Shown here one piece after another: positions 1-14,454 of a stretch of DNA of 64,000 bases. Origin of the DNA: an uncultured Clostridia bacterium (GTDB lineage Bacteria > Bacillota > Clostridia > Oscillospirales > Acutalibacteraceae); contig CANQXE010000001.1 in NCBI GenBank assembly GCA_947627725.1, positions 1-64,000 on the forward strand, read 5' to 3'. The position numbers and the translations under genes were made by a program. The notes beneath the pieces were generated by a model. The model did no database searches. It saw only the letters and a program-made list of their open reading frames with translations, and was not told the DNA's origin. Within the stretch, counting starts at the first letter, position 1. Each line of letters begins with the position of its first letter.

Positions 1-71
1 GTCTGTCTGTCTGTCTGTCTGTCTGTCTGTCTGTCTGTCTGTCTGTCTGTCTGTCTGTCTGTCTGTCTGTC
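1..71. repeat. Tetranucleotide microsatellite (GTCT)n / (AGAC)n, at least 17 units
   Basis: An uninterrupted run of GTCT fills the first 71 bases of the window and continues past its edge, so the true copy number is unknown. On the minus strand it reads AGAC and lies a few codons after a good start codon, inside a reading frame. Tetranucleotide tracts in this position are classical slipped-strand phase-variation switches; GACA repeats in Haemophilus influenzae lgtC are the close known parallel. The window edge inside the tract may reflect an assembly break at the repeat. Confidence 0.97.
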
Positions 72-83
72 AAGATTGTCCAT
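1..83 (-). CDS. 5' end of a repeat-bearing (probably phase-variable) gene, cut by window edge
   Basis: Only the first 27 codons are visible. The minus strand has a strong Shine-Dalgarno AAGGAG 8 nt before an ATG at 83-81, then Met-Asp-Asn-Leu, then the AGAC repeat translated as repeated Asp-Arg-Gln-Thr. A 4-nt repeat cycles through all frames in 12 nt, so every frame stays open inside the tract, and the copy number decides which frame enters the downstream gene. It follows a GT2 gene by 51 nt in the same direction, so it is probably the next gene of the polysaccharide operon, perhaps another transferase. Product unknown because the body lies outside the window. It is too short and too repetitive for routine ORF calling. 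Confidence 0.7.
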   Translation of the reverse strand, partial: MDNLDRQTDRQTDRQTDRQTDRQTDRQ

Positions 84-134
84 CCTTTCTGCTCCTTTGT
101 CAAGTGTTTTTGAATGTTTTGATAGTAATTTTTT

Positions 135-1136
135 TCACCAAATTCTTTTTTTAACCATTATCTTAATTTTAGCTAAAGCTTTAATTACTATTTTAAAAGT
201 ATTTGGCATTAACCATAATAACATAACTTTAGCTTTATCTAATTTAGTGAATAAATTTGATTTAATTATTATTTTTTTATTGGACAAAACTGATATTCTA
301 AGAGTTCTGTATTCATTGTTAAATGCATTGTTTCTAATACATCCACTAAGAACGACAAACGCCGAAACAATGTAACCCTTTAATGCATAAGGTAATATTT
401 TCTCGTTATCACGTTCGCCTTCAAGAATAATCTTCTTTGCACGAATAATATCAAATGCTCCATAGCCAAAAGTATTATTCGTAATTGAATTTTCTCTAAT
501 AACATAATGATATTTCGGAATGTCACAAAAAACTGTTTTATAAATATCCTTATAAACTCTATAATTATGCATTATATCTTCAGAACAACCATCTTTTTTA
601 TTATAATAATGTGTTTTAATTATCTTACTTTTGTAAAGCTTGTTCCAAGCTACTCCACTGATATGACCACCTATCGTCAAATCAATCATTCTTTCTTCAT
701 AATTAAATATTTTTATACTTGTATCATTACTTGCTGATTTTTCTTCATTAGTATTTTCATAATTAAAATAAAAACCGCATCGTGAAACATCTGTATCATA
801 CTTAAGTATTAAATTTAAAAGGAAATCAACCATGTCTAATTCAAGAAAATCATCACTATCTGCAAACATAACATAGTCTCCGGTACACATTTCAATACCG
901 CTATTTCTTGCATTAGCAAGTCCGTCATTAACCTTATGTATAACCTTAATTCTATCATCTTTTTCTGCCCACTCATCGCACATTTTTGGACAATTATCAG
1001 GCGAACCGTCATCTACAAGTATAATTTCAAGATTTTTATATGTTTGATTTACAATGCTTTTTAAGCACTTATCAAGATATTTTTCAGTTTTATATACTGG
1101 CACTATTATAGAAATTAATGGTTGCTTATCTATCAA
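135..1136 (-). CDS. GT2 family glycosyltransferase
   Basis: Family 2 (GT-A fold) glycosyltransferase that would transfer a nucleotide-activated sugar onto the growing exopolysaccharide repeat unit on the cytoplasmic membrane face. The N-terminus has the family start ISIIVPVYK, the nucleotide-binding LVDDGSPDNCP and the metal-binding DSDD (about residue 93), with a basic C-terminal tail. The start is TTG at 1136 with AAGGA 11 nt upstream; no better ATG fits the conserved N-terminus. The length of 333 aa is normal. It lies 27 nt downstream of another GT2 in the leftward operon. The acceptor cannot be told from sequence. Confidence 0.9.
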   Translation of the reverse strand: MIDKQPLISIIVPVYKTEKYLDKCLKSIVNQTYKNLEIILVDDGSPDNCPKMCDEWAEKDDRIKVIHKVNDGLANARNSGIEMCTGDYVMFADSDDFLELDMVDFLLNLILKYDTDVSRCGFYFNYENTNEEKSASNDTSIKIFNYEERMIDLTIGGHISGVAWNKLYKSKIIKTHYYNKKDGCSEDIMHNYRVYKDIYKTVFCDIPKYHYVIRENSITNNTFGYGAFDIIRAKKIILEGERDNEKILPYALKGYIVSAFVVLSGCIRNNAFNNEYRTLRISVLSNKKIIIKSNLFTKLDKAKVMLLWLMPNTFKIVIKALAKIKIMVKKRIW

Positions 1137-1163
1137 AATTTTTTATCCTTCTTTCTTAATTTA

Positions 1164-12896: not shown

Positions 12897-13547
12897 CTAC
12901 TTAGTAACTGTCTCTTTATCCGTCTGGGCATTTATATCATTTGCTGTGCCTTGGACGGTAACTGCTACATTAACATTATCCTTATTCATAAACACATTAA
13001 TGAACGTCAAAAATAAAATTTTTATATCAATCCACAGGCTTAAATTATCAACATACCAGACATTAAGCCTGATTCTTTCGTGCCATTCGACATCCTTTCT
13101 TCCATGCACCTGCGCCCAACCGGTAATTCCCGGTCTGACTTCAAACATACGAAGCTGTTCGGGAGTATAATCTTCTATAGGCCAGGGATGATATGTAAGC
13201 GGAGGTCTGAAACCGATTAATGACATCTCTCCTTTAAGGACATTGATAAGCTGAGGAAGCTCGTCAATACTTGTTGCGCGAATTATTTTTCCCACACTCG
13301 TTACTCTCATATCATCCGCGAATGAATATTGTCCTGTACCCATATGCTCTGCATTTTCGCACATTGAACGAAATTTATATATTTGAAATTCCTTTCCGTC
13401 CTTGCCGAGTCTTGTCTGCTTAAAAAGAACAGGTCCCTTTGAATTGAGCTTAATTGCTATGGCTGTAATAAGCATAAGCGGAGACAAAACAATAAGACCT
13501 ATAAATGAAATTATTATATCACAAAATCTTTTAAAGACTTTATACAT
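12897..13547 (-). CDS. Priming sugar-phosphate transferase (bacterial sugar transferase family)
   Basis: 216-aa membrane enzyme of the WcaJ/EpsL/PglC family that transfers a sugar-1-phosphate to undecaprenyl phosphate and so starts the repeat unit. One hydrophobic hairpin (residues 10-33) is followed by GPVLFKQTRLGKDGKEF, IYKFRSM, the catalytic region SIDELPQLINVLKGEMSLIG and PGITGWAQVHGR. It is the short form lacking the N-terminal membrane domain. A Thr/Asn-rich tail of about 25 residues follows the conserved core. It lies 2 nt after the aldolase-like gene. Confidence 0.93.
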   Translation of the reverse strand: MYKVFKRFCDIIISFIGLIVLSPLMLITAIAIKLNSKGPVLFKQTRLGKDGKEFQIYKFRSMCENAEHMGTGQYSFADDMRVTSVGKIIRATSIDELPQLINVLKGEMSLIGFRPPLTYHPWPIEDYTPEQLRMFEVRPGITGWAQVHGRKDVEWHERIRLNVWYVDNLSLWIDIKILFLTFINVFMNKDNVNVAVTVQGTANDINAQTDKETVTK

Positions 13548-13549
13548 TA

Positions 13550-14365
13550 TTAATTCTCCCCTATAATCCCCTTGACACAGCTACACAGCTTGCGGTGTGT
13601 ATCATCAAAAAATTCTTTTTCACAGGTTGATAAAAAATCCTCATACTTTCTAAGATCTTTTACACCGCTGTCAAAAGCTTTCAAAACTTCGTCCTCATTT
13701 GTTATTTCGGATAAATTACAAAATGTTCTTGATAAAATTGACATTGATGAACCGAGCCTGTAATGCTCCGAAACAATATATTCTGCCGGAAGCAGACCCT
13801 CTCCTATTCTGCCGAATCCCCCAAAACCAAAGGAAATACCGGCGTTTTTTATTTTCGCGGAAATACTCTCCACAAGTCCGTTTGAAAGAGGCTCAAATAT
13901 AAAATCAAGTCCCATACTCAAATGAAGATCGTTAAGCCCTATATGTATCTCATCAATACCTTTAATTTTCAGAACTTCGTCAATACAGCCGACCGCCTCT
14001 TTGTTCTCAAGCAGAAGAACAGTTTTAACTCGTCCACCTGTATAATCCAAAAAATATTTCACATCATCCGCCGTTTTCCACATAGGAAGCATAATAATAT
14101 CGGCACCGGCATCAATTACCGCGTCAATTTCATTCTCGGAACCTCTGTGAATAGGATTAACTCTGACAAGTAATTCGGACTTATCCAAAACAGCTCTCAC
14201 AGCCTTGACATCATCGACTGTATGATGATTCTGGACTGTATCCATACCGCCCTGACGTTCATACTTACCAATATATTCCATATCAATAAATATTCTGTCA
14301 ATACCTGAATTTTGTGCAATTTCAGCAATCCTCGGCTGATTTGTTATATACATAAGCTTTAGCAT
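13550..14365 (-). CDS. HpcH/HpaI aldolase / citrate lyase family protein
   Basis: 271-aa TIM-barrel protein of the HpcH/HpaI aldolase superfamily, which cleaves or forms 2-keto-3-deoxy acids or acyl-CoA derivatives. Motifs are IFIDMEYIGKYERQGG (metal-binding acidic residue), RVNPI, DAGADIIMLPMW (about residues 87-98) and LLLENKEAV. It is the first gene downstream of the cluster promoter, ahead of the priming transferase. A role supplying an unusual keto-acid sugar or substituent for the polymer is inference. Substrate unknown. Confidence 0.8.
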   Translation of the reverse strand: MLKLMYITNQPRIAEIAQNSGIDRIFIDMEYIGKYERQGGMDTVQNHHTVDDVKAVRAVLDKSELLVRVNPIHRGSENEIDAVIDAGADIIMLPMWKTADDVKYFLDYTGGRVKTVLLLENKEAVGCIDEVLKIKGIDEIHIGLNDLHLSMGLDFIFEPLSNGLVESISAKIKNAGISFGFGGFGRIGEGLLPAEYIVSEHYRLGSSMSILSRTFCNLSEITNEDEVLKAFDSGVKDLRKYEDFLSTCEKEFFDDTHRKLCSCVKGIIGEN

Positions 14366-14425
14366 AAAAACTACCTAAAATCATTTATACTTTATATATT
14401 TAAAGGTTACTTAAAGTTGTTATGT

Positions 14426-14454
14426 ATTATAATATAAATCAGAGTGATAGTCAA
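14426..14454 (-). promoter_or_regulatory. Sigma-A type promoter of the polysaccharide operon
   Basis: On the minus strand TTGACT, 17 nt spacer, TATAAT, leading into a leader of about 50 nt before the aldolase ATG. It is the only strong promoter found upstream of the 14-kb leftward gene run, so it probably drives all of it. Confidence 0.8.

Follow-up and report, generated by a model that had tools for sequence, protein, structure and literature searches.

Candidate slippage switches in a probable surface polysaccharide operon of an uncultured Clostridia bacterium

The window analysed here, positions 1-64,000 of contig C1 in the draft genome of an uncultured Clostridia bacterium (G000; 2.46 Mb in 58 contigs), begins with minus-strand surface polysaccharide genes that carry AGAC and poly-G repeats within their coding sequences. 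These repeats are considered, with a probability of about 0.82, to be slippage switches of a surface polysaccharide operon, and switching within a strain is what we infer from four observations: repeats beyond chance, placement where length alters the frame, a gene that the assembly shows out of frame, and differences of length and frame between species. Within a strain, the repeat number would change at a high rate by polymerase slippage; where the frame is lost, a glycosyl-, phospho- or acyltransferase would be missing, and the cell population would thereby display mixed glycoforms. The AGAC switch would act at the start of translation, where a ribosome site and an ATG or GTG are followed by the array as the first codons of a LicD or branching transferase gene. 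An earlier sequence-only reading had proposed this kind of system, i.e. frame-placed simple repeats in a polysaccharide operon on a single strand, and the statistics and placement of the repeats bear it out in kind, though not in its extent or for every tract.

Repeats compared with chance

The repeats are genuine, and most of them exceed chance expectation by far. Under a first-order model built from the window, G/C runs of nine or more are expected 0.011 times in 14.45 kb and 1.9 times in the genome, while four consecutive AGAC units are expected about 1e-4 times per genome. The genome holds four runs of at least nine G (G9+), two of them in the window and two on contig C21 (G11 at 4871 and G14 at 6401). 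All four are in the locus, the chance of which is about 1.6e-8. Furthermore, four-unit AGAC repeats are confined in the genome to four contig ends, one each on C1 and C21 (their starts) and two on C47, again all in the locus.

Gene content and contig order

Fourteen minus-strand genes run from 14365 down to 135 of the window with intergenic gaps of 2-86 nt. Position 1 of C1 is a contig end inside a (GTCT)17 array, and the locus extends beyond the window onto contigs C47 and C21, giving about 28 same-strand genes in 28 kb. The window most likely holds the first half of an operon of about 28 genes for a Wzx/Wzy-type surface polysaccharide. All fourteen genes and all tracts named in the sequence-only reading were found, the latter on the forward strand as (GTCT)17 at 1-68, C7 at 4380-4386 and 7503-7509, C11 at 8751-8761 and C9 at 9304-9312. 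The features are as follows.

1-68, minus: (AGAC)17 as assembled, cut at the contig end; would encode the N-terminal (RQTD)n of an array-headed gene
69-103, minus: cassette leader, with TTGACA at 103-98, ribosome site AAGGAG at 97-92, ATG at 83-81 and codons running into the array
135-1136, minus: GT2 glycosyltransferase, fourteenth gene
1164-2186, minus: GT2 glycosyltransferase
2196-3398, minus: 400-residue protein, probable EpsG/Wzy-type polymerase
3445-4492, minus: acyltransferase-3 gene, frame broken at a G7 run
4380-4386, minus: G7 run (C-G7-TA) at the frame break
4512-5627, minus: GT4 glycosyltransferase
5633-6625, minus: GT2 glycosyltransferase
6712-7701, minus: GT2 glycosyltransferase, in frame
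7503-7509, minus: G7 run in Gly-Gly
7719-8795, minus: acyltransferase-3, open as assembled
8751-8761, minus: G11 run (C-G11-TA), near codon 13 of the acyltransferase
8811-9758, minus: DUF6625 protein, open as assembled
9304-9312, minus: G9 run (C-G9-TA), mid DUF6625 gene
9761-10654, minus: GINT1_N-like protein, probable glycosyltransferase
10663-11736, minus: GT4 glycosyltransferase
11746-12882, minus: GT4 glycosyltransferase
12897-13547, minus: priming sugar transferase (Bac_transf)
13550-14365, minus: HpcH/HpaI-type aldolase, first gene
14426-14454, minus: promoter-like TTGACT-17-TATAAT, 11/12 matches

Every AGAC array crosses a contig break, leaving two leaders facing two array-headed genes. 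Read in reverse, C1 gives the leader and then the array; C47, also in reverse, opens with an array fused to the LicD gene and closes with a leader and array; C21 opens with an array fused to a gene for a core-2/branching transferase (Branch). The link from leader to gene in G000 was made by pairing contig ends. The order C1-C47-C21, which no single contig of G000 itself spans, is well supported by gene linkage in two relatives. In G038 the best match of the last window gene (76% amino acid identity) lies directly before the LicD counterpart (74%), as the match does in G054 (62%), and Wzx, HpcH aldolase and Branch genes share an 80-kb contig with this LicD counterpart; in G055, C1-type and C21-type genes stand together on one 95-kb contig.

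Over the window, C47 and C21, the transferases recognised by Pfam comprise Bac_transf, three GT4, five GT2, a GINT1_N-like protein, two Branch, LicD and Glyphos_transf; the other families are Polysacc_synt, three Acyl_transf_3, a polyST-like protein, an epimerase, three CTP_transf_3, two HpcH, DUF6625 and DUF1919. The pair that marks a Wzx/Wzy cluster, a priming transferase (PF02397, in the window) and a flippase (PF01943, on C47), is thus present. The 400-residue protein of the window has no meaningful Pfam match of its own and is probably an EpsG/Wzy-type polymerase, because its counterpart in G038 (46% amino acid identity) matches EpsG above the cut-off (8.3e-8).

Two further observations concern C21 and its locus record. 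Three PseF-like cytidylyltransferases and an HpcH/HpaI aldolase lie near a polysialyltransferase-like gene (L001:4142-6980, on C21), a set that possibly serves a pathway for a keto-acid sugar activated with cytidine monophosphate. At L001:15195-19226, one open frame seemingly fuses what we take, by eye, to be a carbamoyl phosphate synthase large chain and a diaminopimelate epimerase-like part.

The AGAC leader and array

The leader at 69-103 is near-identical to those on C47 and in G054. It reads AAAGGAG(A/C)AGAAAGG(A/G)TGGA(A/C)AATCTTGAC and leads straight into the array, so that leader and array together code for a start codon, (D/E)-N-L-D, (RQTD)n and then LicD or Branch. The sequence-only reading had assigned the AGAC tract to an unknown last gene; on the contig order favoured here, the array instead heads the LicD gene, whose body lies on C47. 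Starts free of leader and array are found in LicD of G054 (91% amino acid identity) and G038, and in Branch of G054 and the C47 copy. In G054 the leader closes one contig, and an array of at least 18 units heads an acyltransferase on another. The ortholog of this acyltransferase on C21 of G000 (93% amino acid identity) has fewer than two AGAC units and retains TGGACAATCTTGACAGA, which we read as the remnant of an array. Across two species, then, one leader composed of ribosome site, start codon and (AGAC)n is associated with three gene families.

Among 80 genus genomes, two have the leader (at three places), and the GTDB contig collection, from which the records of G000 itself may be left out, has it in one record. 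It was not found in viral contigs, and the AGAC arrays of G043 and G045 are without it. The array ends are assembled at 68-76 bp at all four contig ends of G000, which looks like a limit of the assembler. The Branch gene on C47 (L002:1-986) is not closed by a stop codon ahead of the next leader, and its frame continues through into the array; the array length could therefore also change the C-terminus of Branch.

The G-run tracts

Judged by position, a change of length alters the frame at the AGAC arrays, the G11 and G9 runs of the window and both G7 runs, but not in the enzyme core at the C21 runs. As assembled, the G runs of the locus lie inside long open frames, except the G7 at 4380. The G11 run in the acyltransferase and the G9 run in the DUF6625 gene are convincing candidate switches by placement. 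A search for DUF6625 homologs matched 20 of 80 genomes, G000 among them, and the G9 run is absent at that site in 19/19 other aligned genus homologs. The sequence-only reading had treated all tracts as equal switches, which suits the G11 and G9 runs but not the G7 at 7503: this gene is in frame in G000, and the run is a weak candidate for an independent switch, kept as possible. Its GT2 ortholog in G054 has C-G10-T at the same site with the two halves in different frames. The acyltransferase broken at 4380 has its ATG at 4492 and a stop at 4352, with the 3' part open in another frame; in G054 the site is free of a run and the frame is open.

The two C21 runs are probably gene-junction features, as both lie after the usual protein ends. 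One starts at about the position at which homologous aldolases stop (the end could be read in 11 homologs and not in one more), and the other lies after the cytidylyltransferase domain. Their role as on/off switches of these enzymes was rejected, since the aldolase homologs end at about the start of the run. C47 and C21 add one AGAC array, a G11 and a G14 to the locus, and the earlier count of five tracts, together with the figure of 32 glycoforms resting on it, does not stand. The search for tracts across related genomes that had been proposed as a check showed that lengths and frames differ between species, e.g. G7 in G000 versus G10 in G054 at 7503, and fewer than two versus at least 18 AGAC units in the C21 acyltransferase and its G054 ortholog.

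Tracts in related genomes

The proteins of the locus shared with G054 are 82-97% identical, but the GINT1_N-like protein reaches 60% and the fourteenth gene's match 62%. Neither DUF6625 nor the G11 acyltransferase was detected between the genes that flank the G054 locus. Four-unit AGAC arrays are present in 4/60 genus genomes and G9+ runs in 19/60. Proteins of at least 200 residues carrying tracts were listed for 32 cases, with some loci omitted (e.g. the G038 locus L004), and 29 of the 32 were scanned against Pfam. Among 20 genus proteins, the hosts are five Acyl_transf_3, two GT2, two DNA methylases and one each of LicD, MBOAT, YfhO, ATP-grasp sugar-transfer, IspD-like, PLP decarboxylase, DUF1796, TetR, kinase, response regulator and a protein without match. 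Nine more (two from the genus, seven from G138) are three Acyl_transf_3, one GT2, one sugar transferase, one DNA methylase and three others or without match. This set of hosts resembles known phasomes, although some of the genes may carry runs for other reasons. The DNA methylase genes with G9-G10 runs (L018, L007 and L113, in G055, G038 and G138) point to possible phase-variable methylation.

The long G runs have similar flanks. C precedes and T follows the run in 36 of the 48 genus G9+ runs examined: 4/4 in G000, 11/11 in G021, 10/11 in G038 and 11/22 in all others together. This count omitted L025, L031, L033, L026, L034 and L047 (runs at gaps or contig ends, or duplicates), and G9+ places in G004, G038:C90, G042:C69 and C74, G043:C29 and G043:C33:150043 lay outside the fetched loci. 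As a control, G4 runs in the fetched loci, seven loci omitted, have these flanks in 65/593 cases (11%). GC-Gn-TA was met in 60 genomes 14 times at n 9-11, once at n 7-8 and four times at n 6; the loose pattern overall is not enriched, with 88 places against 95 in a backward control that was not split by length. Long G runs occur on either coding strand, which makes a coding or codon effect an unlikely source of the C...T flanks. In other genera of the family the flanks are seen in 18/78 rows (23%) among the matches listed, excluding G000, G064, G138 and one duplicate row of G126, and in G138, with repeats removed, in 9/19 of the matches listed. A family-wide rule was rejected as general on this 23%, though it is about twice the 11% of G4 runs. 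Recombinational copying of the tracts is one possible origin of the flanks. Another genus (G064) has at least 36 places with the flanked-G9 pattern (18 forward, 18 reverse), those listed being mostly C-Gn-A, and these look like a repeated element.

Alternative explanations

Several points weigh against slippage switching as described above. The support is between species, with one assembly of this species, and slippage within a strain is a prediction. Exact G7 runs are common, with 10 in the genome, and by themselves carry little weight; the acyltransferase broken at 4380 may simply be a pseudogene. The assembly cuts the arrays of LicD and Branch, which hides the frame of both genes. G9+ runs are lacking altogether in 41/60 genus genomes, and those with several tracts are a minority. 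In the TetR regulator, the kinase and the response regulator the run lies at the far C-terminus, where switching is not obvious. Finally, a single promoter for the operon, as the sequence-only reading had it, is plausible from the promoter-like TTGACT-17-TATAAT upstream of the first gene but is not proved, because such sites are about as frequent in shuffled sequence (96 observed versus 81.8, standard deviation 10.5).

An invertible promoter was ruled out in the absence of any substantial inverted repeat at the promoter: as had been noted before, only imperfect or short AT-rich pairs occur there, the longest being 22 nt at 73%. No recombinase gene was found among the 28 locus genes and glmS, to which the Pfam scan was applied. 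The claim that control is wholly by slippage agrees with the lack of repeats of the invertible-promoter kind, but may be too narrow, since relatives differ in the gene order around some repeats in a manner suggestive of recombination.

The most serious alternative is that the repeats are mainly recombination joints, i.e. that genes and modules are shuffled at the G runs and the AGAC leader, with slippage as a side effect, which we regard as rather unlikely. Evidence for it is found in G055, which has CTP_5-[G9]-CTP_8 where G000 has CTP_5-[G11]-CTP_6-HpcH-[G14]-CTP_8; exactly the module between the two runs is missing, and the G055 run matches the G11 side of G000 in its upstream flank and the G14 side in its downstream flank. 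This clean gain or loss of a module at tract borders is, however, a single case. Similarly, the leader belongs to LicD and Branch in G000 but to an acyltransferase in G054, and two direct repeat copies of about 300 nt in G038 (89%) start at most 5 nt from C runs; yet most switch-like tracts are placed within a single gene or at its start, where frame alone matters. The upstream flanks of three G000 tract genes of different families are alike (p about 0.001-0.002, 0.01 and 0.04; three of six pairs), but the three pairs with the DUF6625 run are not unusual (p 0.08-0.39). Furthermore, the 4380 run and probably the DUF6625 run differ from relatives in place with no new neighbour. It is also conceivable, though doubtful, that a dedicated process makes and moves slippage switches, the AGAC leader and the C...T-flanked G runs being portable modules that recombination grafts onto further surface-sugar genes and that so both flip single enzymes and reshuffle the cluster.

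Chance or decay, in which the G runs are drift or mere glycine codons and the broken acyltransferase is a dead gene, would suit the G7 run at 7503, which sits in Gly-Gly and belongs to a common class, as well as two LicD tracts of G038 that lie in a proline run. It is nevertheless improbable, considering that the G9+ runs and AGAC arrays gather in one locus at orders of magnitude above expectation, that the DUF6625 run is not conserved, and that runs are found in the same gene classes in other members of the genus and family. Least probable of all is an artefact of sequencing or binning, which the draft state of the genome (58 contigs, with breaks at arrays) and some G runs elsewhere at gaps or contig ends (G043:C38, G011, G013) might suggest, but against which stand the long open frames around all locus G runs except the G7 at 4380 and, in the separate assembly G054, the same leader as well as an array at an orthologous gene.

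Comparison with known systems

Slippage switching, if true here, would provide variation of the surface sugars seen by antibodies and phages without a recombinase, in a multi-switch locus of an uncultured gut Clostridia lineage in which some members of the genus and family have similar tracts. If switches with constant flanks are indeed portable, the origin of new contingency loci becomes testable. The matches listed from open-licence PMC included no paper that treats phase variation by slippage in this lineage, but did include PMC2831843, about homopolymeric tracts as a mechanism general to prokaryotes.

Gut commensals of the genus Bacteroides switch capsules via invertible promoters. The present locus is like them in the variation of a surface polysaccharide and unlike them in that no invertible promoter was found and single enzymes would be switched by frame instead. 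In the passages listed from PMC12413058, the mention of 'phase-variable' concerns Bacteroides thetaiotaomicron.

A close likeness is to the contingency genes of Haemophilus influenzae, whose tetranucleotide arrays adjoin start codons (GACA in lgtC, CAAT in lic2A and lic3A; PMC2651432). In both systems the tetranucleotides begin with the start codon or directly behind it, encode a hydrophilic N-terminal repeat and belong to surface glycan genes, and the GACA of lgtC is the AGAC repeat in another register. In contrast to H. influenzae, a member of the Pasteurellaceae, the host here belongs to the Clostridia, the arrays head LicD, branching-glycosyltransferase and acyltransferase genes, and genes of different families have a leader in common. 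The poly-G tracts are in turn similar to the Campylobacter phasome, where, according to PMC6321876, tracts are mostly inside genes and 9 and 10 repeats are the commonest lengths (53% and 26%). The same paper states that similar flanks are expected if repeats spread by recombination, and reports a single gene pair that points to recombination around repeats. The mechanism is thus already known, for the most part in pathogens (e.g. Haemophilus and Campylobacter). What is new is the host group and the size of the locus, together with a start leader common to several genes and flanks that stay constant.

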